33,006 nt of DNA, from the NCBI GenBank assembly GCA_023954415.1, contig JAMLIB010000014.1:1-33006 (forward strand), written 5' to 3'. Shown here in pieces: positions 57 to 24,312 of the stretch. The translations under genes and the position numbers were made by a program. The stretch's first letter is position 1. Each line of letters opens with the position of its first letter. The notes beneath the pieces were generated by a model. It did not search any database. It was not told the DNA's origin and saw only the letters and a program-made list of their open reading frames with translations. This DNA is from Trueperaceae bacterium. GTDB lineage: Bacteria > Deinococcota > Deinococci > Deinococcales > Trueperaceae.

Positions 57-548
57 TTACCCCGCGCGGCGCGCGGCGACCCAGGCCGCGTAGGGGTCGA
101 CGCCTTCCAACCGCACGGGCAGGTGGGTGAACCGCATCGCGCGTTCGGTGGCCGGCTTGGCGAGCTCGGCGTACACGTGCTCGGTAGACAGGCCGAACGG
201 CCGGCCTTCCTCGTTCGAGTACGCGTAGTACACGGCGCCGACCCCCAGCATGAGCATCGCCCCAAGGCACATCGGACAGGGGTGACCGCTGGCGTACATC
301 ACGTACTCCCCTTGCCCACCCAGCGCCCCCCGGCCGGCCGCCGCGCGCAGCGCCTCCAGCTCGGCGTGGGCCGTGGGATCGCCCGTCGCCAACATCGTGT
401 TGACGCCGGTGGCGACCTCCTCGCCGTCCCTCGTCAGCACCGCTCCGAACGGTCGACCGTCGCTCTGGAGCACGTTCTCGTGCGCCAGAGCGACGGCCTT
501 CCGGAGGTGCTGTTCATGACGTCCTGCGCCTGCTGCTTCGCAACTCAT
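57..548 (-). CDS. Guanine deaminase-like nucleoside/base deaminase
   Basis: This 163-residue protein belongs to the cytidine/deoxycytidylate deaminase fold, which hydrolytically deaminates bases in the cytoplasm. The zinc site is visible as TAHAE (His61, Glu63) and PCPMC (Cys91, Cys94). The DPTAHAE context, the CPMCLGA motif and the C-terminal FGLS..VY.EL.KP..ER and DPYAAW segments resemble bacterial GuaD more than TadA; this comparison is from memory of the family. The ATG at 548 has a GAGGTG ribosome site 7 nt upstream and follows the preceding gene's stop by 18 nt, so it is the last visible gene of the transporter/M24 operon. Its place there suggests the imported compound or a breakdown product carries an amino-substituted ring or amidine group. 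A related base deaminase specificity is possible. Confidence 0.85.
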   Translation of the reverse strand: MSCEAAGAGRHEQHLRKAVALAHENVLQSDGRPFGAVLTRDGEEVATGVNTMLATGDPTAHAELEALRAAAGRGALGGQGEYVMYASGHPCPMCLGAMLMLGVGAVYYAYSNEEGRPFGLSTEHVYAELAKPATERAMRFTHLPVRLEGVDPYAAWVAARRAG

Positions 549-566
549 CGTTGGGCACCTCGCTTG

Positions 567-1700
567 TCAGTTGTCGAGAACGTACGGTTGGGCGACCGCG
601 AAGCCCGAGTCGGAGAGCTCTACCCCTGCCTCGGTCATGACACCCCTGAGGCTGACCACGAGACCGCCTCGCACCCGCGGCTCCACCACGAACTCCATGC
701 CGGGCTCGAGCCGGTCACGCGACGCCGGGGAGAGCAGCGGCATGTCCTCGAAGTCGAGCGAGACGCCGTGCCCGACGACCGGCTGGACGCAAGCCAGGCC
801 GGTGGCGGCCAGCCGCTCGTGGACCGACCGCGCGGCCTCGGCTGCGGACATCCCGGGCCGGAACCCGGCCACGCTCGCGAGCAGCGCCTCGTGCTGCCTG
901 GCGTACTGGTCGGCGACGGCCGCGTCGGGAGCGCCGACCACCACCGTTCGTGAGAGGTGCGCCGCGTACGGACCGAACGAGCACGTGTCGTCGAGGACCA
1001 AGACGTCGCCGCGCGCCACCGGCACCGCCTGCGTCGATACCAGGGGCACGATCCGTTGGCCGGCGGCCTCGATCCCACCACGCCCAGTGTCGGTGCCCTG
1101 CCGCAGGATCTCCCGCATGATCCGGTTGTGGATCTGGACCCGGGTGTCGCCGGCGCGAGAGGCCGCCAGGCCTGACCGCAGCGCGGCGCCGAGGCGCTCG
1201 TAAGCCCGGGCGGACTCTGCCAACTGCCGAGCGTCCTTACGCACGCGCAACTCGTCGATCAGACCCCCGAGGTCGCGGAAGGTGGCCTCCGGCATGGCGC
1301 CGATGAGGTGGCGGTACTCCTTGTCGGAGACGTAGTCCAACTCGACGCCGATGGTCCCCCGCGCGAGCCCCTTGGCCTCGAGCACGTCCGCCACCGTGTG
1401 GAAACCGGATTGGGCGAAGTTGCGGAACCTCACCACCTCGTCAGACCAGGCGAGCTTGGAAGCGAGGCCCGAATGCCAACGGCCGACGACGAGAGCGGAG
1501 TCGCCGTCACGCGTGCCGACGGCCAGGGCCGCGCCGGGACCGCCGGGGCGCTGGCTGGAGCCGACCCTCGGGTGCCCGGACATGTACCAGACGTTCTTGG
1601 CGGACTGGACGACAGCGGCGTCGAGCCCGGCCCCCTGCAGCGCGCTCGTCAGCGCGCCGCGCTCCAGGAACCGCGTGGCCCGCTTCAGGTCCTCTACCAT
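567..1700 (-). CDS. M24/creatinase-fold protein, second tandem copy, metal ligands missing
   Basis: This 377-residue protein has the two-domain M24 (aminopeptidase P/prolidase/creatinase) layout: a creatinase N-domain (about 1-150, including SAKNVWYMSGHP) and a pita-bread catalytic domain (about 160-377). The five metal ligands of true M24 peptidases would fall at Asp237, position 248, His311, Glu340 and about 350. Position 248 is His instead of Asp and position 350 is Ser instead of Glu. Creatinase is a known metal-free member, so hydrolysis of a C-N bond in a non-peptide substrate is plausible. The ATG at 1700 overlaps the upstream gene's TGA (TGATG), which implies translational coupling. 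It is a diverged paralogue of the neighbouring M24 gene. The substrate is unknown. Confidence 0.85.
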   Translation of the reverse strand: MVEDLKRATRFLERGALTSALQGAGLDAAVVQSAKNVWYMSGHPRVGSSQRPGGPGAALAVGTRDGDSALVVGRWHSGLASKLAWSDEVVRFRNFAQSGFHTVADVLEAKGLARGTIGVELDYVSDKEYRHLIGAMPEATFRDLGGLIDELRVRKDARQLAESARAYERLGAALRSGLAASRAGDTRVQIHNRIMREILRQGTDTGRGGIEAAGQRIVPLVSTQAVPVARGDVLVLDDTCSFGPYAAHLSRTVVVGAPDAAVADQYARQHEALLASVAGFRPGMSAAEAARSVHERLAATGLACVQPVVGHGVSLDFEDMPLLSPASRDRLEPGMEFVVEPRVRGGLVVSLRGVMTEAGVELSDSGFAVAQPYVLDN

Positions 1701-2842
1701 CAGCGCCTCCCCTCGATGACGAACAGTTCGTCGGTGTCGAAACGATCGGACAGGAGCACGTTCCCGCCCTCGCGGATGAGGACCAGGTCTTGGACCGTGT
1801 AGCGCTGCGTCGGCGGCAACATCGGCTCGATGGCGATGATGTTCCCGTCGCGCAGTGTCATCTCCTCGTCCTCGGTGATCATGGGGCGCTCCTGGTAGCC
1901 GAACCCCAGGCTGTGGCCCACGATGACGGCCGAGTGCTGCATCCCGTACTCGGCCACGAGCTCTCGGCAACGCAGGAAGACGTCGCGGCCGGTGACGCCG
2001 GGACGCATGTACTCGATGAGGGCCCGCTCGACGTCGACGGTGATCCGGTACATGCGTGCCTGCTCCTCTGACGCTTCCCCCACGATCGCGTGGCGCGACT
2101 GGTTGGAGGGGTAGCCGCCGAGGAAAGTGGCGTGGTCGGCGAAGATCAGGTCGCCGTGCCGGATGGGTCGCTCGCCCACGCCTTTATGCGGCTCACCGTT
2201 CTCCTCCACGATCATCAGACCGCCGCGGCAGTACTCGGCGCCGAGCTCCAGCGCGTTGCCGAGGATGGCCGAGTGCAGGTCCCACTCCGTGTCGCCTTCA
2301 CGCGCTTCCGCGAAGGCCTGGATCATCGCGTCGTCTAGGATGTCGGCGGAGCGCTTGATCATCGCGATCTCGCCAGGGGTCTTGAGGCTGCGCATGAGGT
2401 CGAACGCCTCGTCGACGGGTGTCAAGCGCAACCGGGGCAGGAGCGCTCTCAGTTCCCGGCAGGCCGACGCGGTCATCCCCTCCGACTCGTAACCGACGAT
2501 GCTCTCCTCGAAGCCGTGCGCCTTCAGGTAAGCCGCGAGCGCCCCGATGGCGGAGCCGTCCTCGCGGTTGAACGCCGTGACGGGCGCCCATGCCAACTCA
2601 CGGCTGACGGCGAGGTCGGCCTCCTCGACGAAGAGCAGCGAGCTGCCGTCGGGCTGGACGAGGGCGACGCCGCATGACGCGGCGGATGGCGTGTACCAGG
2701 GCAGGAGGTGGATGTCCGGGATGGCGGTAGGGCTGCCGGTGAGGTAGAAGACGTTCTTCGGCGAGCTCGCGACCAGGACCTCCACCGCCGTGTACGCGAA
2801 CAAGGAGTCGAGGGCTTCCCTATTGACGAAGTCTTGGAACAT
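1700..2842 (-). CDS. M24/creatinase-fold protein, first tandem copy, metal ligands altered
   Basis: This 380-residue protein has a creatinase-type N-domain (SSPKNVFYLTGSP near residue 27) and an M24 catalytic domain. The expected metal ligands are Asp236 (present), Asn247 in place of Asp (YPSNQSR), His310 (VGHSLG, present), Glu339 (IEPM, present) and Gln351 in place of the last Glu (VQDLVL). Two of five acidic ligands are neutral, so a normal two-metal peptidase site is unlikely and a creatinase-like mechanism or altered metal use is more probable. The ATG at 2842 is preceded by AGGAGG 5 nt upstream, which excludes longer in-frame readings. The gene lies 59 nt after the second permease gene and is coupled to the next M24 gene. 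Role inferred from context: cleavage of the compound brought in by the transporter. Confidence 0.87.
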   Translation of the reverse strand: MFQDFVNREALDSLFAYTAVEVLVASSPKNVFYLTGSPTAIPDIHLLPWYTPSAASCGVALVQPDGSSLLFVEEADLAVSRELAWAPVTAFNREDGSAIGALAAYLKAHGFEESIVGYESEGMTASACRELRALLPRLRLTPVDEAFDLMRSLKTPGEIAMIKRSADILDDAMIQAFAEAREGDTEWDLHSAILGNALELGAEYCRGGLMIVEENGEPHKGVGERPIRHGDLIFADHATFLGGYPSNQSRHAIVGEASEEQARMYRITVDVERALIEYMRPGVTGRDVFLRCRELVAEYGMQHSAVIVGHSLGFGYQERPMITEDEEMTLRDGNIIAIEPMLPPTQRYTVQDLVLIREGGNVLLSDRFDTDELFVIEGRR

Positions 2843-2901: not shown

Positions 2902-3870
2902 TCACTGGATGCCCCGCAGCCGGGGGTCGAGAAAGTCGCGCAGCCAGTCGCCGAGCAGGTTGAAGGAGAGGACCGTTAGCGCTATCGCCACGCCCGGGAA
3001 GACCGCGAGCCACCACCTGCCGGCGAGCAGCTGATCGCGGCTCTCGGCGAGCATCCCGCCCCACGTCGGCACCGTCGGCGGCACCCCGAGACCGAGGAAG
3101 GACAGCGACGCCTCGGAGAGGATGACGCTGGAGACGTTGAACGAGGCGATCACGATGAGCGGGGCGAGGATGTTGGGCAGTACCGTCCGGAACACCACGG
3201 CGAGCGTCCGCGCGCCGAGGGCCCTGGCCGCCTCGACGTACTCCTTCTCGCGCTGGGAGATGGTCTGCGCGCGGGCGATGCGGGCGTACGTGACCCACTG
3301 CCCTACCCCCAGGATGAGGATTAGGTTCCCGATCCCCGGCTTCAACACGACCAGGAACATGATGGCGAGCAGGATGAACGGGAAGGCCAGCTGGATGTCG
3401 GCCAGACGCATGATGATGCTGTCGAGCCGACCGCCGAAGTAACCCGCCGTCACCCCCAGTGACGTGCCGATGAGGCCGCCGATGAAGACGGCGCTGAACC
3501 CGACTATGACGGAGACCCTGGCACCGTAGAGCAACCGGCTCAGGACGTCGCGCCCCAACCCGTCGGTGCCGAGGTAGGCGCTCACCTTCCCCGTCCTGTC
3601 CGGCTGCATCGGGGGCTGAAGCCGGGCGACGATGTTCTGCCTGTTCGGGTCCTTCGGCGCGACCCGGGGGCCGATCAAGGCCGTCACGGAGACGACGACG
3701 AGGATCACGAGGGCGAACAGCGGCCACTTCGCCCGCAGCAGGCTCTTGAACACTCGCCGGGCGGTGGAGCGCCGGCGAGCGCGCCTCAGGTCGCCCACCG
3801 GCGAGGCGGGAGCGGGTTGGCCCGGCTCTAGCGACACCGATGCAGGTTGCGTCGGCACGTCGTCATTCAC
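2902..3870 (-). CDS. ABC transporter permease, DppC/OppC type
   Basis: This 322-residue inner-membrane permease belongs to the dipeptide/oligopeptide (nickel) import family. A proline-rich cytoplasmic N-terminus of about 45 residues precedes a first membrane segment (WPLFALVILVVVSVTALIG). The DppC-type N-terminal motif LGTDGLGRDVLSRLLYGAR follows, then several membrane spans and the EAA loop for ATPase contact (EYVEAARALGA). The C-terminal LSFLGLGVPPTVPTWGGML is typical of the family. The GTG start at 3870 overlaps the TGA of the upstream permease as GTGA; the nearby ATG is out of frame. The coupling fits a heterodimeric DppB/DppC channel. No ATPase genes lie in the window, so the pair must use ATPases encoded elsewhere or beyond the left edge. 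Confidence 0.93.
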   Translation of the reverse strand: MNDDVPTQPASVSLEPGQPAPASPVGDLRRARRRSTARRVFKSLLRAKWPLFALVILVVVSVTALIGPRVAPKDPNRQNIVARLQPPMQPDRTGKVSAYLGTDGLGRDVLSRLLYGARVSVIVGFSAVFIGGLIGTSLGVTAGYFGGRLDSIIMRLADIQLAFPFILLAIMFLVVLKPGIGNLILILGVGQWVTYARIARAQTISQREKEYVEAARALGARTLAVVFRTVLPNILAPLIVIASFNVSSVILSEASLSFLGLGVPPTVPTWGGMLAESRDQLLAGRWWLAVFPGVAIALTVLSFNLLGDWLRDFLDPRLRGIQ

Positions 3871-4844
3871 CCCAAGCGCACGCGCGGGTCGAGCCGGGCG
3901 TAGAACAGGTCGACGATGAGGTTGAGGAGCACGAAGACGAGCGCAAAGATGACGACGGCAGTCTGGACCAGCGGGATGTCGCGCTGGTTGATGGCGTTGA
4001 ACACCAGGCGCCCGACGCCGGGCCAGGAGAAGATCGTCTCCACCACCACGACCCCGGACAGCAGGAAGCCGAACTCGAGCCCGAACATCGTGACCACGGG
4101 CAGCCAGGCGTTCCGAAGCGCGTGCCGCACGACCACGGCCGGCACGGCCAGGCCCTTGGCGCGCGCGGTCCTGACGTAGTCCTGCGACAGCACCTCGAGC
4201 ATGGAGGAGCGGATAAGGCGGGCGTTGCGAGACAGCGAGAACAACGCTATCGTCACGCTCGGCATCAACAGATACTTGACGGCTGACGGGACGTTCTTGA
4301 GCGCCGTCGCCAGATCGCCAGCCAGGAACGGCTGGATGACGGCGACGTGTCCAGATATCGGGAGCCACCTGAGGCCCAGGCCGACGAAGAGGATCAGCAT
4401 GATGCCCAACCAGAAGCTCGGCATGGACTGGCCGATCATGGCGAAGATCATGATGCCGCCGTCCACCGTCGTACCGCGCTTCAGGGCGGCGAAGACGCCG
4501 AACGGTATGGCGAGCACCGTGGCGAACAGCATGGCGAAGACGGTCAGTTCGAGCGTGGCTGGGAACTGGCCGAGTACGACCCCGAGGGCGGGCTCCCTGT
4601 AGGTCAGGGAGTTGCCGAAATCGCCCCGAGCGAGGCCGCCCAGGAACGAGAGGTACTGCTCGTAGAGCGGTCGGTCGAAGCCGAGCTTCGCTCGCGTCGC
4701 GGCGATGGCCTCCTCACTCGCCATCTCCCCGATGAAGAGGTAGGTCGGGTCGCCACCCAGATGTAACGCGAGGAACGTGATGAGCGTCACGCCCAGGATG
4801 ACTATCAGGCTCTGCGAGAGCCGCTTCGTTATGTAGGCCAACAA
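3867..4844 (-). CDS. ABC transporter permease, DppB/OppB type
   Basis: This 325-residue permease has the family's usual N-terminal helix (YITKRLSQSLIVILGVTLIT), a periplasmic loop with GDFGNSLTYREP, about six membrane spans, the EAA-type loop (DYVRTARAKGLA) and a C-terminal YARLDPRVRLG. It forms half of the import channel with the coupled DppC-like partner. The start is an unusual TTG at 4844, chosen because AGGGAGGTGA lies 6 nt upstream on the minus strand and no ATG fits that spacing. A 15-bp hairpin stands between this gene and the binding-protein gene upstream, so it is probably expressed at a lower level than the binding protein. Confidence 0.93.
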   Translation of the reverse strand: MLAYITKRLSQSLIVILGVTLITFLALHLGGDPTYLFIGEMASEEAIAATRAKLGFDRPLYEQYLSFLGGLARGDFGNSLTYREPALGVVLGQFPATLELTVFAMLFATVLAIPFGVFAALKRGTTVDGGIMIFAMIGQSMPSFWLGIMLILFVGLGLRWLPISGHVAVIQPFLAGDLATALKNVPSAVKYLLMPSVTIALFSLSRNARLIRSSMLEVLSQDYVRTARAKGLAVPAVVVRHALRNAWLPVVTMFGLEFGFLLSGVVVVETIFSWPGVGRLVFNAINQRDIPLVQTAVVIFALVFVLLNLIVDLFYARLDPRVRLG

Positions 4845-4949: not shown

Positions 4950-6515
4950 CTAGTTGACGACGAGATGGACCGTGAACGGGTCGATGCGGTCGTCGCGGCG
5001 GGGCGTCCAGTCGATGCGATCGCTAACGCCGTAGAAGCTCGGCAGGAAGTAGAGGAGGATCCAGGGCGGGTCGTTGTAGAAGATCACGAGCATGTCGTTG
5101 ACGATCGCCTGGCGCGCCTCGGGGTCGCGCTCGGCGAGCATCTTCTCGTACAGCTCGAACCACTCCGGGTTGTTCCAGTCGTTGTAGTTGTTGTTGGCCT
5201 TGAAGCTCGCGTAGAGCCCCATGTCGCGGATCGGGCTCCACGTGCCGCCGCCGATGCTGTTGATGAACAGCGGGCCCGCCTCGTGCGACTGCAGGAGGGG
5301 GGTGAAGACCGACGCCGTCTCCATGACCTCGACGGCGGTGGGGATACCGACGTCCTCCAGGTACTGGGCCACCGTCAAGGCGAGGTTGACGTCGTTGGCG
5401 AACAGGCCGTTCGGGGTCTGGAGGTTGAGGGTGAAGCGCACCCCGTCCGCGCCGCGCGGGTAGCCGGCGTCGTCGAGCATCTTCTCGGCGAGCGCCGGGT
5501 CGTACGGGTACGGCTCGAGGGCGGGGTTGTCGTTGGGCGGGTTCACGAGCGTCGTCATGCGCTTGCACTCCACTCCGAGGAGGTTGGCGCAGATGGACGG
5601 CACGTCGATCGCGTACTGGATGGCGCGGCGCACATCGACGGACTGGATGGCCGCGGCGCCGGGGCTCGACTGCGCCATCTTCTCGTTGAAGCTGAACCAG
5701 ATCGAGATGCGCCGCGTGCCCATCACGGGCTTGACGGTCGCGGTGCCGGAGTTGTTGATGGCGGCGACGTGGTCGCTGACGACGCCGGCCACGATGTCGA
5801 CGTTACCCGCGATGAGCTCGGCCGCTTGGGTGGACGCCTCGGGGATCGTGCGCCAGACCAACCGTTGCCAGCCGCCCTGGCCTTTCTCTAGGGGGTAATC
5901 GGCGACCTTCTCCAACACGACGCGGTCACCCCTGACGTACTCGACCACTCGGTAGGGACCGGAGCCGATCGGGTTGTTGGCCGCCTGGTCGAGGCTCATC
6001 TTCTCGTAGGCGTCCTTGCAGTGGACCAGGATGTCGGCCATGAAGGCCACCGCGGCCGGGTTGTAACGGCTCATCACGACCGTCAGTTCCAGTTCGCTGT
6101 CTACCCGCGCATCCACGTAACCGATGTTCGGGAACACGAAGTTGACGATGTTGCCGGTGAAGGCGTTGGCGGGATCGGCGGCGCGCTTGATGGTGTATAC
6201 GACGTCCTCCGCCGTCAACGGTTCGCCGTCGTGACACTGCAGGCCTTCGCGGAGCTTGAAGCTGACCTCGGTGCCGGTCTCCGAGACGGAGTAGCTCTCG
6301 GCGAGGGACGGCGTCACCTTGCCGTCAGCGTCGATGTCCACGAGGCTGGCGAAGACGAGGCCCCTGGTGATGTTGAAAGTGGCGGCGTCGCTGATGGCCG
6401 CGGGGTCGAGGGTGGACGTGCTGCGGCTTTGAGCGATGACCAAGGTGTTGGCGTCAGGGGCTTGGGCCAAAGCCACTGCTCCTAGAAATAGCGCGGCGAC
6501 CAGTAGGTACTTCAT
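4950..6515 (-). CDS. Peptide-type ABC transporter substrate-binding protein (SBP_bac_5 family)
   Basis: This 521-residue extracytoplasmic solute-binding protein belongs to the DppA/OppA family. It starts with a short signal peptide (MKYLLVAALFLGAVALAQA) and shows no obvious lipobox Cys, so a signal peptidase I site after ALA or AQA is likely. Family hallmarks follow: the mature start NTLVIAQSRSTSTLDP, the VSFKLREGLQCHDGEPLTAEDVVYT block near residue 90, the IGSGPYRVVEYVRGD block, and the DVRRAIQYAID block near residue 285. The ATG at 6515 has AGGAGGAG 6 nt upstream. It is first in the operon under the promoter at 6644-6671. The ligand cannot be read from the sequence; peptides or peptide-like amides are the family's usual cargo. 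Confidence 0.94.
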   Translation of the reverse strand: MKYLLVAALFLGAVALAQAPDANTLVIAQSRSTSTLDPAAISDAATFNITRGLVFASLVDIDADGKVTPSLAESYSVSETGTEVSFKLREGLQCHDGEPLTAEDVVYTIKRAADPANAFTGNIVNFVFPNIGYVDARVDSELELTVVMSRYNPAAVAFMADILVHCKDAYEKMSLDQAANNPIGSGPYRVVEYVRGDRVVLEKVADYPLEKGQGGWQRLVWRTIPEASTQAAELIAGNVDIVAGVVSDHVAAINNSGTATVKPVMGTRRISIWFSFNEKMAQSSPGAAAIQSVDVRRAIQYAIDVPSICANLLGVECKRMTTLVNPPNDNPALEPYPYDPALAEKMLDDAGYPRGADGVRFTLNLQTPNGLFANDVNLALTVAQYLEDVGIPTAVEVMETASVFTPLLQSHEAGPLFINSIGGGTWSPIRDMGLYASFKANNNYNDWNNPEWFELYEKMLAERDPEARQAIVNDMLVIFYNDPPWILLYFLPSFYGVSDRIDWTPRRDDRIDPFTVHLVVN

Positions 6516-7285: not shown

Positions 7286-8869
7286 ATGAACTTAGCCGTC
7301 ACCTATCCGACTCGCCGCTCCCCCCTCCTGGCGGGCAACGTCGTCGCGACCTCGCAGCCTCTCGCCGCTCAGGCGGGCCTCCGCATGCTCCTCGCGGGCG
7401 GCAATGCCGTGGACGCCGCCATCGCCGCGGCCATCACCCTCACGGTGGTGGAGCCGACCAGTAACGGCATCGGTAGCGACGCCTTCGCCATCGTGTGGGA
7501 CGGCACGCAATTGCGTGGCCTCAACGCTTCCGGTCGCTCGCCCGCCGCCTTGAGCGCGGAACGCTTTGCCGGTATGACGTCGATGCCCCTGCGCGGTTGG
7601 GACAGCGTGACGGTGCCAGGCGCCGTTTCCGCCTGGGTCGAACTCCACGAGCAGTTGGGGAGCCTCCCCTTCGAGCGGCTGTTCGAACCCGCCATCGGGT
7701 ACGCCCGGGACGGGTTCCTGGTCGGAGCCATCACGGCCCGGCTGTGGCAGCGCGCGGAGGCGACGTTCAGCAACTTCCCGGAGTTCAACAGGGTGTTCCT
7801 GCCGAACGGGCGCGCGCCGGCGGCCGGTGAGCGCTTCCGCAACCCAGACCAAGCGGCCACGCTCACGGAGATAGCCTCCACCCGAGGGGAGTCCTTCTAC
7901 CAGGGCGCGCTCGCGGAACGGATCGCGGCGGAGGCCCGGCTCGGCGGCGGGGCCATGACCGAAGCGGACCTGGCCGGCCACAGGGCGGATTGGGTGGAGA
8001 CCATCTCGACCCCCTACAGGGAGCACGAGCTGCACGAGATCCCACCGAACGGCCAGGGCCTCGCGGCGCTCATGGCGCTCGGCATCCTCAGGCACTACGA
8101 CATGGCGTCCGTGCCGGTCGACTCGGCCGACTCCCTACATCTTCAGATCGAGGCCATGAAGCTCGCGTTCGCCGACTGCTACCGGTACGTGGCGGACCCC
8201 GAGCACATGGAACTGCCCGTCTCATCCCTTCTCGACGACGACTACCTGGCCGGCAGGGCGAGGTTGATAGACATGCGGCGCGCCGGCTCGCCGCAGCATG
8301 GGGTGCCCGGACCGGGAGGGACCGTCTACCTGACCGCGGCAGACGAAACGGGCATGATGGTCTCTTTCATCCAGTCGAACTATCACGGTTTCGGTTCCGG
8401 GGTCGTCGTTCCAGGCACTGGGATCTCCCTACAGAACCGCGGAGCCGGCTTCGTGCTGAAGTCCGGTCACCCCAACTGCGTGGCGGGAGGAAAGCGGCCC
8501 TTCCACACCATCATCCCGGCCTTCCTCACCAAGCAAGGCGCCCCTCTGATGAGTTTCGGAGTCATGGGCGGCCCGATGCAGCCCCAGGGCCACACCCAGA
8601 TGGTCGTCCGGGTCGTCGACCACCAGCAGAACCCTCAGGCCGCCGCCGACGCCCCACGTTGGCAGGTACTGGGGGGCACCAAGGTGGCGGTAGAGGCAGG
8701 CTTCTCCCCCACCGTGTTGGCCGAGCTGGAGGCGCGCGGACACATCATCCAGGAGTCGAGCCTCGGCGCCGACTTCGCGTTCGGAGGGGCTCAGCTCATC
8801 TATAGGGCCGATGGCGGCTACGTGGCGGGCACTGACCCCCGGAAGGACGGGCAGGCCGTCGGGTACTGA
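7286..8869 (+). CDS. Gamma-glutamyltransferase family protein (YwrD-like)
   Basis: This 527-residue N-terminal-nucleophile hydrolase proenzyme belongs to the gamma-glutamyltransferase family. The N-terminal half has ASGRSPAAL, VTVPGAVSAWVELHEQLG and NGQGLAALMAL. The self-cleavage site is the GGTVYLTAAD segment, where Thr346 would become the nucleophile of the small subunit. SFIQSNYHGFGSGVVVPGTG and LQNRGAGFVL follow, as in the YwrD-like branch. No signal peptide is seen, so it is probably cytoplasmic, unlike classical periplasmic GGT. The ATG at 7286 lies 5 nt after the Lrp stop with GGAG upstream; the longer reading frame starts inside the regulator and is not used. It may release glutamate or an amine from the imported substrate. 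Confidence 0.9.
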   Translation: MNLAVTYPTRRSPLLAGNVVATSQPLAAQAGLRMLLAGGNAVDAAIAAAITLTVVEPTSNGIGSDAFAIVWDGTQLRGLNASGRSPAALSAERFAGMTSMPLRGWDSVTVPGAVSAWVELHEQLGSLPFERLFEPAIGYARDGFLVGAITARLWQRAEATFSNFPEFNRVFLPNGRAPAAGERFRNPDQAATLTEIASTRGESFYQGALAERIAAEARLGGGAMTEADLAGHRADWVETISTPYREHELHEIPPNGQGLAALMALGILRHYDMASVPVDSADSLHLQIEAMKLAFADCYRYVADPEHMELPVSSLLDDDYLAGRARLIDMRRAGSPQHGVPGPGGTVYLTAADETGMMVSFIQSNYHGFGSGVVVPGTGISLQNRGAGFVLKSGHPNCVAGGKRPFHTIIPAFLTKQGAPLMSFGVMGGPMQPQGHTQMVVRVVDHQQNPQAAADAPRWQVLGGTKVAVEAGFSPTVLAELEARGHIIQESSLGADFAFGGAQLIYRADGGYVAGTDPRKDGQAVGY

Positions 8870-8941: not shown

Positions 8942-10024
8942 TCACCCGCGCCGCGCGTCGTTCGGGTAGGTGATGCCCACCTGCCGCCGCACCTCGTCGA
9001 ACAGCCGCATGGTGGCGAGCGTCTGCTCCAGCGGCATGGCCGGACTCTCGTGCAGGCCGGCCTGCACGCAGCGCGTCACCTCGCGGAGCTGGAAGGCGTA
9101 GGGCGCGTCCGTCAGCTCGAACTCCTCGGACCGGCGCGCGGCACCCTTGACGACCGTGAAGCCGTTCGGGCGGCTGAGGGACGGGCCCGTCTCCAGGCAC
9201 CCCTCGGTGCCGACGATGCGCGCCCTGCGCGTCGAATCGGAGACGAACGAGACCACGACCTGGGAGTGCGCGCCGCCCGCGTGCGTCAGCGCGAGGGCGC
9301 AGAGCTCGTCGACGCCGTCCCTGTTCACGTTCCCTGTCGCCCGCACGCCGGTCGGGAGACCGAGGGCGCCGATCACCCAGCAGAGCGGGTAGACGGCCAG
9401 GTCCAGGAGCGCGCCGCCACCGTCCACGGGTGCCCAGAGGCGCGTTCTGGGGTCGCGCTCGGCCATGAAACCCATGTCGGCCTGCACGTAGCGCACGCGG
9501 CCGAGCTCGCCGCTCTCCAGGACGTCCATAGCGGCCACGTACGTGGGGAGGAAGCGCGTCCAGACGGCCTCCATCAGGAACAGACCGCGGTCGCGCGCGA
9601 GGCGTACGAGGTCCTCGGCCTCGGCCGCCGTGATCGCGAACGCCTTCTCGACGAGGACGTGCTTGCCCGCGCGCAGCATGGCGCCGGCGACGGCGTGGTG
9701 CTGGCCGTGTGGGGTCGCGACGTACACGACGTCCACCTCGGGGTCGGCGGCAAGGGCCTCGTAACCACCTGCGCCGCCGTAGGACGCACTGAAGCCGTAC
9801 TGGGTGGCGAAGGCCGCCGCCTTGGTGGCGTCGCGGCTGCTCACGGCCTGGAGCCGCGCGTCCTCGAGGAGCGCGAGCTGGGCGGTGACGGTATGCGCGA
9901 TCTTGCCCGTGGACACGACGCCCCAGCGCAGGGCGAGGCCGGTGGCGGCGAACGGGTCGGGGGCCGGCCGGCCTCCGTGGGGCTGCGGTGGCGTCGTGAG
10001 CGGTCTGGCGACGTGGCGTTCCAT
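8942..10024 (-). CDS. Gfo/Idh/MocA family oxidoreductase
   Basis: This 360-residue NAD(P)-dependent oxidoreductase has a Rossmann start at about residue 33 (LRWGVVSTGKIAHTV, a GxxxxGxIA-type loop). The VDVVYVATPHGQHH segment and the family motif GKHVLVEKAF (Glu-Lys-Ala in place of Glu-Lys-Pro) follow. The C-terminal domain contains GGGALLDLAVYPLCW, typical of the dihydrodiol dehydrogenase-like subgroup acting on sugars or diols. The N-terminal 30 residues are a Pro-rich extension. No ribosome site is seen before the ATG at 10024, but TACCCT lies 5 nt upstream, so a leaderless transcript is possible. It is convergent with the gamma-glutamyltransferase gene and divergent from the MFS gene. The substrate is unknown. 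Confidence 0.88.
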   Translation of the reverse strand: MERHVARPLTTPPQPHGGRPAPDPFAATGLALRWGVVSTGKIAHTVTAQLALLEDARLQAVSSRDATKAAAFATQYGFSASYGGAGGYEALAADPEVDVVYVATPHGQHHAVAGAMLRAGKHVLVEKAFAITAAEAEDLVRLARDRGLFLMEAVWTRFLPTYVAAMDVLESGELGRVRYVQADMGFMAERDPRTRLWAPVDGGGALLDLAVYPLCWVIGALGLPTGVRATGNVNRDGVDELCALALTHAGGAHSQVVVSFVSDSTRRARIVGTEGCLETGPSLSRPNGFTVVKGAARRSEEFELTDAPYAFQLREVTRCVQAGLHESPAMPLEQTLATMRLFDEVRRQVGITYPNDARRG

Positions 10025-12018: not shown

Positions 12019-13506
12019 TCACTGGGCGTCCTGCAACTCGGCGAGGATCTTCTCCCGGTCAGCTTCCCCGTACTCCTTCAGCGGGTCGACGGCCTTCAGG
12101 TAGGCGGCGACGTCGAGGAGGTGCGGCGGCAGCGTCATGAGGCCGTGGGTCGTCATGACGTCCATGCGGCTCGTCTCGTAGAGGGCGCCCTGCCAGCCGT
12201 CGGCCTCGATGCGCTCGAGGGTGAACCTGTGGACGGTGGCCTGCATGAGCGTGTGGACGAGGTCCCGCTGGTCGGGAGACAGGGCCTCCCAGGCGTCCGC
12301 GGCACGTTGCCTGCGGGCGCGGTGCAAGGCGTCCGCGATGGTCGTGGCGATGCTGCGCGCCTGCTCGCGCGTGAGCGGTTGCGGACCGCCGTTCTCCGGC
12401 TCGTCCTGCCTGGGCGGCTCGACGCCCTGTTGGAGCAGGCTGTTGACGAAACCGCCGAGGTTGTAGATCGGCCTGCCGCCCTGCTCCGCTCGCGCCTGCA
12501 GCACGCGCGCGTAGGCGACCAGGTCGAGGACCCGCTGGGCGCCGTAGCGGGCAACGGACCGCTCAGGATCCTGGCCCCAGCCGATGTCGCGCAGCGCGTC
12601 GGCCGCCTGGAGCTCCTTGAGGAGCTGCTCCTTGTCGGCCTTCTGCGCGACGCGCTTGGCGAGGCTCGCAGGCAGGCGCACACGCGGCTGGAAGACGTCG
12701 TTGCGCCTGATCTGGAACGACACGCGCTGGAACTTACGGCCTACCTTGTCCGGCTCGTAATCGAAGGTCAGGCACGTGTAGGCGCCGAACTCCTCCTGCG
12801 CCTTGTCGAGGACGTAGCGGAAGTCTTTGAACCGCTCGTACTTCCCGTCGAGGCCGAGACGGAGCTTGAGGTCGTCGACGTCGAAGATGAGCTGCGAGCG
12901 CTCGCCGGCGTAGCTGGCCGTGTAGAGCACCTCGAACAGGCGCATGCTGTTGAAGCTCTCGAACGACAGGAGCTGCTCGGTGGGGATGATGCTGAAGTCG
13001 CGCCTGAGCTGAAGGAGGTAGGGCTTGAGCCTCGGGTGGATGTGGATCTCGATGGCAGCCATCTCGCCGCTGTCGCGCCCGTTGTCGTAGCGCGCCTCCG
13101 AGACCCACTGGAACATCACCCAGTCGCCGTTGGGCTCCTTGATCTGGATGGTCTGCTCCAGGAGCTCCCTAGCCGACTCCTCGATCCGCGAGTAGATGCT
13201 CTTGCCGCTGATGTTGAAGAGCTGGGCGTACTCCCAAGCGGTGATGCGGATCGGCTCAAGCGTGAGGTCTTCCTTGGTGATGTCGGAGAGCGCGAGGACG
13301 AGCAACCGTTTCGTGAGGATGCCCATCTCCTGCCGGCTGAGCGCCAAGGGGTTGGCCTGGGTGATGGAGAGAGACGGACCGTAGCTCCTCCGCTGCGGCG
13401 CACGCTGCTTGCTCTTGGTCCGTTGTGAGCGGGGTCTGCCCGCCGGTTGCGCCTGACGCGCAGCCGTCCTGCCGACCGCCTCGCCGAAAGGTGTCTCTTC
13501 GCTCAT
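12019..13506 (-). CDS. repA: Plasmid replication initiator, Rep_3 (RepA/RepB-like) type
   Basis: This 495-residue protein has the two-winged-helix initiator layout. A basic N-terminal tail precedes a first winged helix with ITQANPLALSRQEMGILTKR (about 48-67), EYAQLFNISGKSIYSRIEES and YLLQLRRDFSIIPTEQLLSF. The second part contains SMRLFEVLYTASYAGERS and a DLKLRLGL segment. Such initiators bind iterons upstream of their own gene and melt an adjacent AT-rich block. Both kinds of element occur just upstream here (13.66-14.16 kb). The C-terminal 200 residues are longer than in small-plasmid Reps and of unknown role. The ATG at 13506 has GGAGAGG upstream. The gene marks the region as a self-replicating or once self-replicating molecule. 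Confidence 0.85.
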   Translation of the reverse strand: MSEETPFGEAVGRTAARQAQPAGRPRSQRTKSKQRAPQRRSYGPSLSITQANPLALSRQEMGILTKRLLVLALSDITKEDLTLEPIRITAWEYAQLFNISGKSIYSRIEESARELLEQTIQIKEPNGDWVMFQWVSEARYDNGRDSGEMAAIEIHIHPRLKPYLLQLRRDFSIIPTEQLLSFESFNSMRLFEVLYTASYAGERSQLIFDVDDLKLRLGLDGKYERFKDFRYVLDKAQEEFGAYTCLTFDYEPDKVGRKFQRVSFQIRRNDVFQPRVRLPASLAKRVAQKADKEQLLKELQAADALRDIGWGQDPERSVARYGAQRVLDLVAYARVLQARAEQGGRPIYNLGGFVNSLLQQGVEPPRQDEPENGGPQPLTREQARSIATTIADALHRARRQRAADAWEALSPDQRDLVHTLMQATVHRFTLERIEADGWQGALYETSRMDVMTTHGLMTLPPHLLDVAAYLKAVDPLKEYGEADREKILAELQDAQ

Positions 13507-15230: not shown

Positions 15231-16034
15231 GTGAAGGTGCTGACGTTCTTCAACCATGCAGGCGGGGTGGCCAAGACCAGCACGGTCCGCGACGTCGGCT
15301 ACGTCCTCGCCGAGATGGGCAGGCGCGTGCTGCTCATCGACGTCGACCCGCAAGCGAACCTCACGCGCTGGCTGGGCGTCGAGGACGACATCGCCTTGTC
15401 GCAGACCATCTACCCCGCCGTGCTGGGTGATGCGGACAGAGATAGCGATCCCGGTGCGCGTGCGGGAGACGACGATCTCGTGCTACCCGAGCCCCTCGCC
15501 GTTCACGGCATGGGGCTCATCCCGAGCAACCTGAACATCGCCATCGTGGAGCGCGAGATCCTCAGCGTCTTCATGGGCGTCGTCAGGCTGCGCGAGGCCG
15601 TCAGGCGCCTACAGGGTTACGACTACGTGCTCATCGATCCGCCGCCCAGCCTGGGGCAGCTATCGGCGCTGGCGGTCGTCGCCGCCGATAGGATCGTCGT
15701 GCCCCTACCGACCAACCGCAAGGGCCTGGACGGGATCCCTACCGTCATCCGGATGGTCCGCGAGTACCGCAAGGCGGCGCGCAACCTCGACATCGCGCTC
15801 TTCGTGCTCACGCAGCACGATAGGCGTACGCGCCACGACCGTGACAGCTTGGAGATCATCCGTGAGCAGCTGGCGGCCGTGGCGCCCGTGTCTACGCCGT
15901 TGGCGTCTAGGCCGGCGTACTACTCGGATGCGCAGGTTCAAGGCATGCCCATCCCGGTGTACGCTCCTGGCAGCGAGGCGGACCTGGAGGTCAGGCGCGT
16001 GACCGCGGAGTTGCTCGAACGACTGGAGGGGTGA
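15231..16034 (+). CDS. parA: ParA-family partition ATPase
   Basis: This 267-residue ATPase drives segregation of the replicon by dynamic binding to the nucleoid. The P-loop is NHAGGVAKTS (residues 8-17), followed by the LLIDVDPQANLTRWLG Walker A' region and the hydrophobic Walker B region VLIDPPPSLG. The signature lysine of the deviant Walker A motif (KGGxxK) is replaced by Ala (AGGVAK), a variant I recall from other Deinococcota ParA proteins. There is no N-terminal DNA-binding domain, so this is the short chromosomal-type (Ib/Soj-like) form. The GTG start at 15231 has AGGAGG upstream. It is followed after 4 nt by parB. Confidence 0.92.
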   Translation: MKVLTFFNHAGGVAKTSTVRDVGYVLAEMGRRVLLIDVDPQANLTRWLGVEDDIALSQTIYPAVLGDADRDSDPGARAGDDDLVLPEPLAVHGMGLIPSNLNIAIVEREILSVFMGVVRLREAVRRLQGYDYVLIDPPPSLGQLSALAVVAADRIVVPLPTNRKGLDGIPTVIRMVREYRKAARNLDIALFVLTQHDRRTRHDRDSLEIIREQLAAVAPVSTPLASRPAYYSDAQVQGMPIPVYAPGSEADLEVRRVTAELLERLEG

Positions 16035-16038
16035 AGCG

Positions 16039-16992
16039 GTGGCGAAGAAACGGAAGAACGAGCTCGACCGCGCCGCCGTGTTCGGCGCCATCCTCGGTGA
16101 GATCGAGACGAGTGTCGAGCAGCAGTCCACGACGGGTATCGGTTTGGCCGACCTGCGCTACAACGATAGTCAGCCGAGGAAGCATTTCGACGGAACAACG
16201 CTGAGCGACCTGGCGGAGAGCATCCGCGAGCGCGGGGTGTTGGAGCCGATCATCGTGAGGCGCGTCGGCACGGGCTACGAGGTCGTGGCCGGGGAGCGCA
16301 GGGCGCGCGCTGCGCGGATGGCAGGCTTGAGCGAGGTGCCCGCCGTGATAGTCGAGCTCGACGACCGCGAGGCGCTCGAGATCGCGATAACGGAGAACCT
16401 CCAGCGCGAGGACCTGAACGCGGTGGAGGAGACCGAGGCCGTGCTCGGCCTCCTAGAGCTAGTCCTCGAGGCGCCGCGGGCCGATGTCGTCGCGTTCCTC
16501 CAGGCGCTCTATGGCGAGGAACGGGGCAGAGGCGGCTCGCGGCCGATCGATCGCGCGCGACGCGAGCAGACGTTGGGCATGTTCAAGCGTCTGGGGCGGT
16601 TCAGTGTGTCCTCCTTCGTCAGCAACCGGCTCCCCATCCTCGAGTTCCCTTCAGAGTTGCTCGACGCGGTCAGGAGCGGGCAGTTGGCCTTCACCAAGGC
16701 CCAGGCCATCGCCCGCCTGGACGATCGCCGGGCGCAGCGGCTCTTGCTCGCCGAGGCGGTGGGGGAGGGCCTGTCTCTCAGCCAGATCAGGCGGCGGATA
16801 ACGGAGCTGCGTCAGGGGGATCACCGCGCCGTTGCGGCGGCTGCGGCTGGCGTCCCCGTGGACGCCCAACGGCTGGTGGCAAGTACCAAGCGCCTACTCA
16901 ACAGACGCAGGCTCGCCGGCCTCGGCCCGAGCAAGCTCGGGCGGGTCACGGAGCTGCTCGACGAGCTCAACCGGTTGCTGATCGAAGACTGA
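16039..16992 (+). CDS. parB: ParB-family partition protein
   Basis: This 317-residue centromere-binding protein and CTP switch has an N-terminal ParB/Srx domain (about 38-130) containing RERGVLEPIIVRRVG, the GERRARAARMAGL box and the TENLQREDLNAVEE motif. A helix-turn-helix region follows (about 170-260; FVSNRLPIL, LAFTKAQAIARLDD). The C-terminal part is probably the dimerisation domain. The GTG start at 16039 is 4 nt after parA's stop, and the GGAGGGG within the parA end serves as ribosome site. It probably binds the 16-bp palindromes upstream of parA. Confidence 0.93.
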   Translation: MAKKRKNELDRAAVFGAILGEIETSVEQQSTTGIGLADLRYNDSQPRKHFDGTTLSDLAESIRERGVLEPIIVRRVGTGYEVVAGERRARAARMAGLSEVPAVIVELDDREALEIAITENLQREDLNAVEETEAVLGLLELVLEAPRADVVAFLQALYGEERGRGGSRPIDRARREQTLGMFKRLGRFSVSSFVSNRLPILEFPSELLDAVRSGQLAFTKAQAIARLDDRRAQRLLLAEAVGEGLSLSQIRRRITELRQGDHRAVAAAAAGVPVDAQRLVASTKRLLNRRRLAGLGPSKLGRVTELLDELNRLLIED

Positions 16993-18021: not shown

Positions 18022-21000
18022 TCACCCGAAGTGGTATCCCCGGACGGAGATGGGCGAGGGCAGGCTGGCCAGGGTCGACGCCTTGAGGGTCACTTGATAG
18101 CCGGTGTCCTCCACGACCGCGTCGGCCACCAGGATGGCGGCGTCGCGCACCATCACCCGGTGCGACTCCCACAGGTCTGGCGGGATGATGAGCTGCGCGC
18201 GCACCGGACCGTCCTCGAGGACGTAGAAGGCGAATCCCTTGGCGGTCGGCGGCTTCTGCCTGCTCACCACGAGGCCGGCCGTTCGAACCGTGGCGTGGCG
18301 GGGTCGGCGGCGTAGGCTGGCCAGCGGGACGCACTCCAGCTCGCGCAGCTGGCTGCGCATGAAGTCGAGCGCGTGGACCTCCAAGGGGCTGAAGCTCATG
18401 GTCTCGTGGTCCCACGTGAACTGCTTCTCGAGTTCGAGCGTTGCCAGCGGCGGGGTGTCGGGGGCCGCCGTGAGGAGTTCGAAGCCTCCGCTCGCGTGCG
18501 TGTTGGAAAGCGCGCCGACGCGGAACAGCGCGTCGCGACGGTCCTGCAGGGAGTCGAAGGCGCCGGCGCGCACGAGCGCCTCGAACTGTTCCTGCGCCAG
18601 GGAGAGGCGCCTGTGGGCGTCGTCCGCGCTCGCGTACGGCCCGCGTTGCAACCGCTCGTGAAGCACCTTGACGGCGGTCGCCTCGGTGATGCCTTTGACT
18701 GTCGAGAGTGGCGGCCGCATCGCTTTGACGGTCTTGCCGTCCAAGCGGACCCTCTCACAGTAGAAGCGCGTCGCGCCGCTAGCGCTGATGTCGAGCGGCA
18801 GGACGGGCACCCCCCAGGTGCGCGCTTCTTGCCGCTTCGTCGAGTGCGACCACATGCCGGGCGCGTCGTTGAAGACGGCGGTCAGGTACTCGGCCGGGTA
18901 GTTGATGCGCAGCCAGCCGCTGGCGTAGGCGTGGATGGCGAAGGCCCAGGCGTGCGACTCGGCGAAGCCGAAGCCCTGGAAGCCCTTGACAGCCTCGAAG
19001 ACCTTCTCGGCCTGGGCGCGCGTGGCGTCCGAGTGCCGCATGGCGCGGGCGACGAAATCCTCGCGGTGCGGCTCGATGTCCTCGAAGTCGCCCCAGCCGG
19101 AGACCTTCTTGCGGAAGCGGTCGGCCTCGACCCAGTCCATGCCGGCGAAGCTCACGGCGATGCGCAGGACGTCCTCCTGGAACAGGAGCACGCCGTAGCT
19201 CTTCGCGAGGATCGGTTCTAGCTTCGGATGCCAGTAGGTGACCTCCTCGAGTCCCTGGCGCCGCTTCAGGTACGGATGCACGGTGCCGGATTGGATGGGT
19301 CCGGGACGGATGAGGGCCACCTGATGGGCCAAGTCGTGGAGGTTGCGGCTACGCATGACGCGGCTGGTGTGCTGCTGGCTCGGGCTCTCCACCTGGAACA
19401 GGCCCATCGTGGAGCCCTCGGCCATGAGGTCCCAGACGCGGGCATCCTCGGGGAGGTTGCCGAGGTCGAGCCACACGCCGTCGAGCCGCATGACCTCCTC
19501 GCGTGCCCATCCCAGCGCCGCGAGCATGCGGAGGCCGAGAAGGTCGAGTTTGACGAGCCCTAGCTCCTCGGCGTCGTCCTTGTCGAGCTGCAGGAGCTTG
19601 GAGCCTCCGCTCGCGTGCTCCGTGGGGGAGTAGTGAGAGAGGGGATGGTGCCCCAGCACCACACCCCCGCAGTGCGGCGCCAGGTGCCGGGCGTGCCCGG
19701 GTTCCATGCTGCTGAGCAGCTTCAGGAAAGTGAAGGCGACGGGGGCGTCTCCTAGCACCTCGGCGAAGGCCACGGCGGCGTGGGCGGCGTAGCGCGGCCA
19801 TAACCCACGGAAATCGCGTCCCAAGGCCTTGGTGAGGCGGTCGCGCAGCTCGGGCGGCAGGCCCAGCGCGCGCCCGAGATCCTGGATGGCCAGGGGTAGG
19901 TGGTAGGTGATCTTGTTGCAGACCATGGCGTGGGTCTCGGCGCCGAAACGCTCCTCCACCCAGTCGAGGACCTCCTGGCGGCGGTCGGACGCGATGTCGA
20001 TGTCGATGTCGGGCATGGTCTTCATGCCGGTGTGCATGAAGCGCTCAAAGAGCAGGTCGTTCGCGAGCGGCTCGGTCTTGGTGATGCCGAGCAGGTAGCA
20101 GACGATGCTGGCGGCCGCGGAGCCGCGCCCGGCCGCCATGATGCCTTGGCGGTCGCAGAAGTCGGTTATCTCGGCGGTCACCAGGAAGAAGTCGGCCATC
20201 TTGTGCTCCCCGATGATGGCTTTCAGCTCCGTCTCGAAACGCGCTTCCGCCTTGGTCAAATCGTCGCCGGAGTAGCGCTTCAGCAGCGCCTTCCGACACC
20301 GCGCCTCCAGCAGTTCTATCGGGGCCTCGTTGCCCCGCGCGAGCCGCGACCTGGGCGGGGTGATGAAGCGCCGCCCGGTCTGGTCCTCCGAGGCCAGCTC
20401 GAAGCAGGCGCGCTCACCTACCCAACCGGTGTTCAGCGCCGCGTCGGGGAAGGGGAGGCGGTCGAGCACCTCGGCGGGGCTCGGCAGCGCCTGACAGGAG
20501 TTCTGTGGTCGGTTGGCGTGAGGTTGCTGCACACTGATCCCTAACCTGGCGCAGGTGAGGGCGTCGTAGAGCCGGTAGTCGTCCGGGGTAGCGTAGCGGA
20601 CCTCCGGCGCGCTCACCGCCGGCAGGCCGAGGTGTTTAGCGAGGTTCCTGATGACGCGCGCGCGCCTTTCGTCCCAGCGGTAGCGGTCGTGGAAGAGCTG
20701 CAGGTAGAAGCGGCCGTGGAACGCCTCCTCGACGCGCTTCAGCAGGTCTTGCAGCTCCGTGATGCGGCGTCGCGCCAGCAGGTTCGCCACGACGCCGTCT
20801 CGCGGTCCCGACAGGAGGATGACGTCGCGGTTGTGCGCGAGGAGTTCCGACAGGAGCGCGGCGCGTTCCGCCCTCGCCAGGGCGACGGTTATCAGCTCGC
20901 AGATGGTGGCGTAGCCCTCTCGCGACGTGGCGATGAGCACGAACGGGTACGCCTCGTTGCCGATGCTCACGGGGACGGTGGCGCCGATCAGCGCCCGGAT

Positions 21001-21192
21001 CTTGTGCTCCTCGGCAGCCTTGAACAGCTCGACCACGCCGGTGACGTTGAGGTCGTCCGTAAGCGCCAAGTACTGGTAACCCAGCGCGGCGGCCCGTTCG
21101 ACCAGCGTGGTCGGGCTCGCGGTGCCCGCCCCGAAGCTGTAGTACGAGTGCACGTTCAGGAGCGCGCTCAGTCGGTCGTTCTCGCCACCCAC
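18022..21192 (-). CDS. dnaE2: Error-prone DNA polymerase III alpha-like subunit (DnaE2/ImuC)
   Basis: This 1056-residue C-family polymerase is used in damage-induced translesion synthesis. It starts with a PHP domain (NVHSYYSFGAGTASP from residue 13). The palm carries the catalytic PDIDIDIASD motif near residue 395, followed by fingers with GFGFAESHAWAFAIHAYASG and a C-terminal OB-fold (VRTAGLVVSRQKPPTAKGFA). It lacks the long C-terminal tau-binding tail of replicative DnaE. The GTG at 21192 is chosen because GGGAGGGAG lies 7 nt upstream and the frame further upstream is Arg/Ala-rich shadow sequence. It overlaps the end of the preceding DUF6504-like gene by 25 nt, implying coupling. imuA and imuB, its usual partners, are absent from the window. 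Confidence 0.92.
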   Translation of the reverse strand: MGGENDRLSALLNVHSYYSFGAGTASPTTLVERAAALGYQYLALTDDLNVTGVVELFKAAEEHKIRALIGATVPVSIGNEAYPFVLIATSREGYATICELITVALARAERAALLSELLAHNRDVILLSGPRDGVVANLLARRRITELQDLLKRVEEAFHGRFYLQLFHDRYRWDERRARVIRNLAKHLGLPAVSAPEVRYATPDDYRLYDALTCARLGISVQQPHANRPQNSCQALPSPAEVLDRLPFPDAALNTGWVGERACFELASEDQTGRRFITPPRSRLARGNEAPIELLEARCRKALLKRYSGDDLTKAEARFETELKAIIGEHKMADFFLVTAEITDFCDRQGIMAAGRGSAAASIVCYLLGITKTEPLANDLLFERFMHTGMKTMPDIDIDIASDRRQEVLDWVEERFGAETHAMVCNKITYHLPLAIQDLGRALGLPPELRDRLTKALGRDFRGLWPRYAAHAAVAFAEVLGDAPVAFTFLKLLSSMEPGHARHLAPHCGGVVLGHHPLSHYSPTEHASGGSKLLQLDKDDAEELGLVKLDLLGLRMLAALGWAREEVMRLDGVWLDLGNLPEDARVWDLMAEGSTMGLFQVESPSQQHTSRVMRSRNLHDLAHQVALIRPGPIQSGTVHPYLKRRQGLEEVTYWHPKLEPILAKSYGVLLFQEDVLRIAVSFAGMDWVEADRFRKKVSGWGDFEDIEPHREDFVARAMRHSDATRAQAEKVFEAVKGFQGFGFAESHAWAFAIHAYASGWLRINYPAEYLTAVFNDAPGMWSHSTKRQEARTWGVPVLPLDISASGATRFYCERVRLDGKTVKAMRPPLSTVKGITEATAVKVLHERLQRGPYASADDAHRRLSLAQEQFEALVRAGAFDSLQDRRDALFRVGALSNTHASGGFELLTAAPDTPPLATLELEKQFTWDHETMSFSPLEVHALDFMRSQLRELECVPLASLRRRPRHATVRTAGLVVSRQKPPTAKGFAFYVLEDGPVRAQLIIPPDLWESHRVMVRDAAILVADAVVEDTGYQVTLKASTLASLPSPISVRGYHFG

Positions 21193-21476
21193 CAGCTGTC
21201 TCCCTCCCTGAAGAGCTCGAGCTGCGCGCCGTCGTCGAGCTCGAGCAGGTAGTAGCCGCGGCGGATCTCGAGCGCTTCCCACCAGCGCCCGGCGCAGCGC
21301 CACCGGTCGATGACGTTGACGACCCGCCTGGGGGGCAGGGGACGCCTCGGCGCGCGCCTGGCCGGCGCGCCCTTGGGAGCGGGGGAGGGGAGGCCGGCCG
21401 GCGCGTCCCACTCGACGGATACGGGCGTCTCGTCGTCGGAGAGTTCTACTCGGGCTTGGGTCATCAGTAGGCGCAT
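21168..21476 (-). CDS. Small DUF6504-like protein coupled to dnaE2
   Basis: This 102-residue protein has a Pro/Arg/Ala-rich N-terminal half and a compact C-terminal half (VVNVIDRWRCAGRWWE, GYYLLELDDGAQLELFR, SWWVARTTD). The Trp-rich strand pattern resembles DUF6504, a small domain found beside or fused to Y-family/ImuB-type polymerases; I assign this from memory of the pattern. The ATG at 21476 has GAGG 6 nt upstream. Its end overlaps the dnaE2 start. It may stand in for part of the missing mutasome as an adaptor between polymerase and clamp or DNA. Function unproven. Confidence 0.65.
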   Translation of the reverse strand: MRLLMTQARVELSDDETPVSVEWDAPAGLPSPAPKGAPARRAPRRPLPPRRVVNVIDRWRCAGRWWEALEIRRGYYLLELDDGAQLELFREGDSWWVARTTD

Positions 21477-23991: not shown

Positions 23992-24312
23992 ATGGCGAGC
24001 AAGTACGATCCCGAGACGCGAGAACGAGTGATCAGGCTCTTCAAGGAGCGCCGCGGCGAGGCGCCCGAGGAGTCAGCTACGGCTTCGTTCCGGCGCGTTC
24101 ATGAGTTGGTAGGCATCCCCATCGACACCATGCGCGGCTGGGTCAGACGCGCCGAGGTCGACGCCGGCGAACGAGCAGGCGTGACGAGCAGCGAACACGA
24201 GGAGCTGAAGCGCCTCAGGCGCGAGAACGCCGAGCTGAAGCGCGCTAACGAGATTCTCAAGACCGCTTCGGCGTTTTTCGCCGCCGCGGAGCTCGACCGC
24301 AAACTGAAGTGA
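23992..24312 (+). CDS. IS3-family transposase OrfA
   Basis: This 106-residue DNA-binding subunit has a helix-turn-helix in the first 60 residues (YDPETRERVIRLFKE, VHELVGIPIDTMRGWVRRAE). A leucine-zipper-like coiled coil follows (EELKRLRRENAELKRANEIL), then the typical LKTASAFFAAAELDR end. orfB lies in the -1 frame and overlaps the orfA stop as GTGA. A GTTTTTC stretch at 24273-24279 could allow a -1 shift to make OrfAB, joining near ASAFF; the first base of the slippery site is not ideal. Intact. Confidence 0.92.
   Translation: MASKYDPETRERVIRLFKERRGEAPEESATASFRRVHELVGIPIDTMRGWVRRAEVDAGERAGVTSSEHEELKRLRRENAELKRANEILKTASAFFAAAELDRKLK

Follow-up and report, generated by a model that had tools for sequence, protein, structure and literature searches.

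We found that a plasmid-borne gene block in a Trueperaceae genome encodes two adjacent M24/creatinase-fold proteins, P1 and P2, both of which lack two of the five metal ligands of M24 metallopeptidases. The branch of this known fold to which they belong is small, rare and uncharacterised, but it is not a new kind of system, and what distinguishes them is a clade with the ligand pattern D-N/H-H-E-Q together with an unusual, asymmetric tandem arrangement. Our preferred reading, held tentatively and somewhat short of even confidence, is that the pair belongs to an import-and-degradation operon in which P1 would be a non-prolidase hydrolase, P2 its non-catalytic partner, and a neighbouring deaminase would act downstream. 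We found no report of this gene arrangement in the literature.

The window, the stretch of DNA analysed here, is a whole 33-kb contig (G000:C14) from a 3.2-Mb genome that has a Trueperaceae MAG as a near relative. The pair and its neighbours are encoded as follows:

57-548, minus strand: CDA-fold deaminase, guanine-deaminase-like, 163 aa (Pfam PF00383)
567-1700, minus strand: P2, M24/creatinase-fold protein, 377 aa, with L220 where the catalytic His is expected
1700-2842, minus strand: P1, M24/creatinase-fold protein, 380 aa, keeping H219 (creatinase His232 position)
2902-3870, minus strand: Opp/Dpp-type ABC permease (OppC-like), its start placed by comparison with the sister copy
3867-4844, minus strand: Opp/Dpp-type ABC permease (OppB-like)
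4950-6515, minus strand: family-5 extracellular solute-binding protein (PF00496) with an N-terminal signal-like segment
6747-7280, plus strand: Lrp/AsnC-type regulator, divergent from the importer/M24 run
7286-8869, plus strand: Ntn hydrolase of the gamma-glutamyltransferase (GGT)/cephalosporin-acylase family (PF01019, 511.7 bits), without an obvious signal peptide
8942-10024, minus strand: Gfo/Idh/MocA-type oxidoreductase, kept beside the block in the sister species

The minus-strand run reads solute-binding protein, permease B, permease C, P1, P2, deaminase. The co-directional P1 and P2 genes overlap in a stop/start TGATG, 18 bp separate P2 from the deaminase, and purine-rich, ribosome-binding-like stretches precede both P1 and P2. 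The original prediction, made from the sequence alone, had paired the two proteins with a dedicated importer and a guanine-deaminase-like enzyme. The importer claim was borne out in part: binding protein and permease genes lie in the same run, but no ATPase gene was seen between 6515 and 57. In the PDB, the solute-binding protein matched binding proteins for oligopeptides, opines and nickel. The best PDB match of the deaminase is guanine deaminase (E 2e-28), and it contains TAHAE and PCPMC, the zinc-site pattern HAE...PCxxC; judged by its sequence, it is guanine-deaminase-like, as had been proposed. Whether the Gfo/Idh/MocA oxidoreductase is functionally linked to the M24 block is uncertain. 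Past its gene lies an MFS transporter that weakly resembles the oxalate/formate type.

The closest solved structure to the GGT-family protein is 2nlz, a "cephalosporin acylase" (E 4e-149). Relatives about 60% identical to the GGT-family protein are carried on proteobacterial plasmids, with hydantoinase/oxoprolinase or tripartite transporter genes nearby. In five such plasmids no M24 gene neighboured these relatives, and thus the GGT gene is no marker of the system.

P1 and P2 are 24% identical, and each scored above the Pfam cut-offs for Peptidase_M24 (105.5 bits for P1 and 79 for P2; cut-off 23) and Creatinase_N (43.8 and 57.6 bits; cut-off 22). M24 metallopeptidases bind two metals through five residues, D-D-H-E-E. 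We read these positions from an alignment with about 30 other M24 proteins, in which the motif blocks are free of gaps. P1 has D236-N247-H310-E339-Q351 and P2 has D237-H248-H311-E340-S350, and neither carries the five-ligand set of an M24B metallopeptidase. The residues predicted to replace the second Asp, Asn247 and His248, were numbered exactly, and the last Glu is Q351 in P1 and S350 in P2, where Gln351 and approximately Ser350 had been proposed. The His and one Glu said to persist in both proteins do so (H310/H311 and E339/E340), and the first Asp, which the prediction had left unmentioned, is also retained. Elsewhere in the pocket, the second substrate His of the HE motif is replaced by Q317 in P1 and E318 in P2, the His of the Pro-His motif is H219 in P1 and L220 in P2, and the position of creatinase Glu262 holds S249 and S250. 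In the sequence alignment we found no substitute acidic residue at the motifs near the lost ligands and nothing acidic beside N247 or H248; D352 is the normal Asp following the lost Glu and not a replacement ligand.

The best database names for both proteins are Xaa-Pro peptidases, as would be expected if this were an ordinary prolidase pair with its ligands hidden by an alignment error. We rejected this explanation as highly improbable: the motif blocks are gap-free and the ligand pattern recurs both in the sister species and among more distant relatives, and therefore neither chance nor misalignment is the cause.

AlphaFold2 models of P1 and P2, built from a five-row alignment, were of moderate confidence (pLDDT 78 and 72, respectively). 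At that confidence both showed the pita-bread fold with its N-terminal domain, which together with the Pfam scores agrees with the prediction of tandem M24-fold proteins. Pocket loops of low confidence span residues 216-220 in P1 and 311-328 in P2. The P1 model matched prolidase (Z 34.7), creatinase (33.5-33.6) and ectoine hydrolase (33.3), and the P2 model matched X-Pro aminopeptidase (30.4), prolidase (29.4), creatinase (29.1-29.6) and ectoine hydrolase (29.2). Because prolidase, creatinase and ectoine hydrolase are matched about equally, the modelled fold separates none of the functional alternatives.

We then compared the pair with characterised M24-fold proteins. Creatinase, which hydrolyses its substrate without metal, reads N249-A260-H324-E358-H376 and additionally uses His232 and Glu262 (the reference sequence was confirmed to be identical to 1chm). 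It shares the two-domain fold with the pair and its metal ligands are replaced too. The suggestion that the pair is creatinase-like holds insofar as creatinase His232, His324 and Glu358 all have counterparts in P1 (that of His232 is missing from P2), but a Glu262 equivalent is absent and P1 reads D-N-H-E-Q where creatinase has N-A-H-E-H. In the tree creatinase stood apart from the P1/P2 clade, though as a long branch and with weak backbone support.

Ectoine hydrolase (DoeA/EutD) likewise works without metal and has E-P-Y-M-T at the ligand positions; its first-position Glu (Glu255 by count) is presumably its nucleophile. Using S. meliloti EutD as the reference (537 bits to 6twk), we found the same fold and a comparable setting: DoeA/EutD is an M24 protein whose target is a non-peptide C-N bond and whose gene lies in an import-and-degradation operon. 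The Pro-His motif of DoeA is kept by P1 and not by P2. In contrast, P1 and P2 have Asp where DoeA has Glu, share only 20-24% identity with it, and scored 32-39 bits against the NCBIfam EutD/DoeA models, far below their cut-offs of 613 (TIGR02993) and 575 (NF038259). No eutE, eutB or eutC was seen near the pair in the window. Ectoine clusters often include an AsnC/Lrp gene (PMC13188858). Since its ligand pattern matches neither enzyme, P1 would, as far as sequence can tell, belong to neither family. The solved sequence closest to P1 is prolidase of Deinococcus radiodurans (5giq/5cdl; about 27% identity, same fold), in which D-D-H-E-E and the second His are intact, whereas P1 and P2 have each lost two ligands and the sister P2 three. 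The DMSP lyase DddP also combines the M24 fold with non-peptidase chemistry; it has kept all ligands and a binuclear iron site (PMC4108388), whereas P1 and P2 have not kept theirs.

Relatives of the pair were scarce. A genome-wide scan with P1 matched nothing beyond the sister MAG and one Chloroflexaceae peptidase of canonical type. With P1, P2 and a haloarchaeal relative as queries, no further P1/P2 pair was found in 111 Deinococcota genomes, nor was the pair found in the other genomes of the same family and phylum that were searched. When the domain was sampled with sets of 390 and 386 genomes, only three genomes matched (G247, G390 and G402, all from one bacterial phylum of 18 genomes), each with a single M24 relative reading D-H-H-E-Q. 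The haloarchaeal relative is one M24 protein on a plasmid of Salinigranum marinum; it reads D-N-H-E-Q, and its gene adjoins a complete Opp importer together with genes for an amidase, a GGT and an OFA-type MFS transporter. The G247 and G390 genes lie beside an Opp binding protein, permeases and an M28 peptidase; the G402 contig is short, and a search of it found no importer. The neighbourhood of the G247 M24/Opp genes (L064, 1579-4925) also includes, with the M28 peptidase, an arylmalonate-decarboxylase/Asp-Glu-racemase-like gene and a PLP enzyme gene, an arrangement partly conserved in G390.

P1, P2 and these relatives formed one supported clade (99/94, or 96/96 with creatinase included). The six P1-like members keep the first Asp, the His and the Glu, with Gln at the last ligand and Asn or His at the second. 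The original prediction had read the ligand changes as parallel loss in two copies. This did not hold up: all eight clade rows lack both the second Asp and the fifth-position Glu, and for this reason the loss was probably inherited, a single ancestral loss being the simpler account. From their 24% identity, P1 and P2 appear to be old copies. Topologies placing P1 and P2 as sister copies and grouping the clade with DoeA received p-AU values of 0.29 and 0.145, respectively, and neither was rejected. The position of H219 is Tyr in the other clade members, and thus this His is not a clade-wide catalytic residue.

Loss of ligands is not itself rare in the family, as many M24 proteins are ligand-poor. 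The same genome encodes two with G-E-H-E-S and a creatinase-like Glu (L007 and L009) and one with D-C-H-E-E (L008), and plasmids carry others with A-Q-H-T-V (L034) and E-G-H-E-K (L036). L007 and L009, along with L051 from another genome (G028), make up a subfamily reading G/Y-E-H-E-S with Glu at the creatinase Glu262 position; by sequence, these may be the nearer creatinase-like enzymes of those genomes.

In the sister species, represented by a Trueperaceae MAG (L030, CALMXZ010000014.1; also G021:C14), the block is present in colinear form at 90.4% nucleotide identity. The sister P1 and P2 are 97% and 90% identical to the window proteins, and every ligand position is unchanged except for Ala at E340 of P2; beside the motif blocks, the sister P2 also differs by D238Y and D316G. 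Between window and sister, dN/dS (NG86) was 0.058 in P1 and 0.177 in P2; the deaminase gave 0.142, the importer genes 0.06-0.15, and two canonical M24 genes common to both genomes 0.147 and 0.208. P1 and P2 are therefore both under purifying selection, and P1 is unusually constrained, among the tightest genes of the block. Within the active-site blocks there were no substitutions at 41 positions in P1, one and two of 41 in the canonical pairs, and six of 41 in P2 (p = 0.008 when P2 is compared with the other three combined, with small counts and uncorrected for overall divergence). The overall dN/dS of P2 (0.18) resembles that of the canonical M24 genes (0.15-0.21), and thus only its pocket looks relaxed. 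We conclude that P2 is kept as a protein whose pocket has no special protection.

These comparisons bear on two alternatives. P1 and P2 could both be pseudoenzymes with binding or regulatory roles, like eukaryotic Spt16 and Ebp1. The loss of pocket residues from P2 (E340A, D238Y, D316G) would fit such a role, there is eukaryotic precedent (PMC3888471), and Spt16 structures were among the matches in the fold comparison; the unchanged pocket and strong constraint of P1 and the catabolic operon setting speak against it, and we consider it improbable. About equally improbable, by the narrowest degree less so, is that each is an enzyme in its own right, the two working on successive substrates in a single pathway. 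Uncharacterised Thermodesulfobacteriota clusters described in a 2026 survey, "usually with two eutD homologs", set a precedent for a catabolic cluster with two M24-fold genes (PMC13188858), and P1 is as distant from P2 (24%) as from the Salinigranum M24 protein (28-29%). Against this, P2 lacks the catalytic His and has lost a third ligand in the sister species.

The block is plasmid-borne in both species, as indicated by a Rep3 initiator gene on the M24 contig and a shared backbone. The relevant plasmid genes are:

12019-13506, minus strand: Rep3 initiator
15231-16034, plus strand: ParA
16039-16992, plus strand: ParB

The window genome and the sister genome each have one Rep3 gene, both times on the contig with the M24 block, and the two contigs are alike from 55 to 22642 save for a sister insertion of about 1.5 kb after 10042 and smaller gaps. 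The apparent divergence after 10042 had suggested a mobile island of 10 kb; we rejected this idea because the shared plasmid runs on to 22642. The plasmid also carries a DNA polymerase III alpha gene (18022-21411, minus strand; PHP, NTPase, finger and HHH domains), possibly DnaE2-like. Two adjacent transposase-like genes in overlapping frames (24309-26413, plus strand; HTH_21/rve and IS30-like) may be a nested insertion, and a DEAD-box helicase of 1344 aa that includes a helicase C domain (26659-30693, minus strand) is possibly of a defence type.

In our preferred reading, the operon running from 6515 to 57 would serve uptake and breakdown of a small nitrogen-containing compound, peptide-like or an amide or amidine. 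The family-5 binding protein and the two Opp-type permeases would import it, borrowing an ATPase from elsewhere. P1 would be the catalytic member, retaining the pita-bread pocket, H219, the first Asp, the His and the Glu. Because the charge-neutral N247 and Q351 stand where a two-metal prolidase needs acids, P1 should be unable to build the normal dinuclear centre. Instead it would most probably hydrolyse a non-prolyl C-N bond, either metal-free, like creatinase and ectoine hydrolase, or with one metal. P2, lacking the catalytic His, is more plausibly a partner than a second enzyme: it would stabilise or regulate P1, hold at most a remnant metal site, and possibly take the place of one half in the "embracing" dimer of M24 proteins. 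The deaminase, linked to the pair by adjacency in two close species only, may then act on the amino or amidine group of the P1 product. Consistent with this reading, relatives with D-N/H-H-E-Q sit beside Opp importers in Salinigranum, G247 and G390; counting against it, neither Glu262 of creatinase nor the second His of prolidase (Q317 in P1) is retained. In a stricter version, which we consider unlikely, the two proteins would form an obligate heteromer: P1, its D-N-H-E-Q site unlike those of prolidase, creatinase and ectoine hydrolase, would hydrolyse an imported compound at a non-peptide C-N bond, and P2 would be a pseudoenzyme subunit dedicated to it, giving a bacterial enzyme/pseudoenzyme pair of this fold with an importer and a deaminase of its own.

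The strongest alternative, although we regard it as rather unlikely, is that P1 and its clade are still metalloenzymes, with one metal on N/H247, H310, E339 and Q351, working as specialised amidases or peptidases on imported peptides. The residues at all kept or changed ligand positions of the P1-like proteins are able to bind metal, the importer is of the oligopeptide type, and the relatives' neighbours include an M28 peptidase and an amidase. Both bridging acids are lost, however, which by established M24 chemistry is expected to abolish the two-metal site, and the best-studied ligand-poor relatives are metal-free.

Members of this clade carry Xaa-Pro peptidase annotations despite their incomplete metal sites. 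If P1 is a non-peptidase hydrolase, it would represent a third M24 ligand pattern for non-peptide C-N bonds, beside those of creatinase and ectoine hydrolase, and a few genomes (Deinococcota plasmids, a haloarchaeon and one small bacterial phylum) would be marked out for an uptake pathway that can be tested. As an asymmetric pair, P1 and P2 would offer an accessible example, in bacteria, of an enzyme teamed with a pseudoenzyme.
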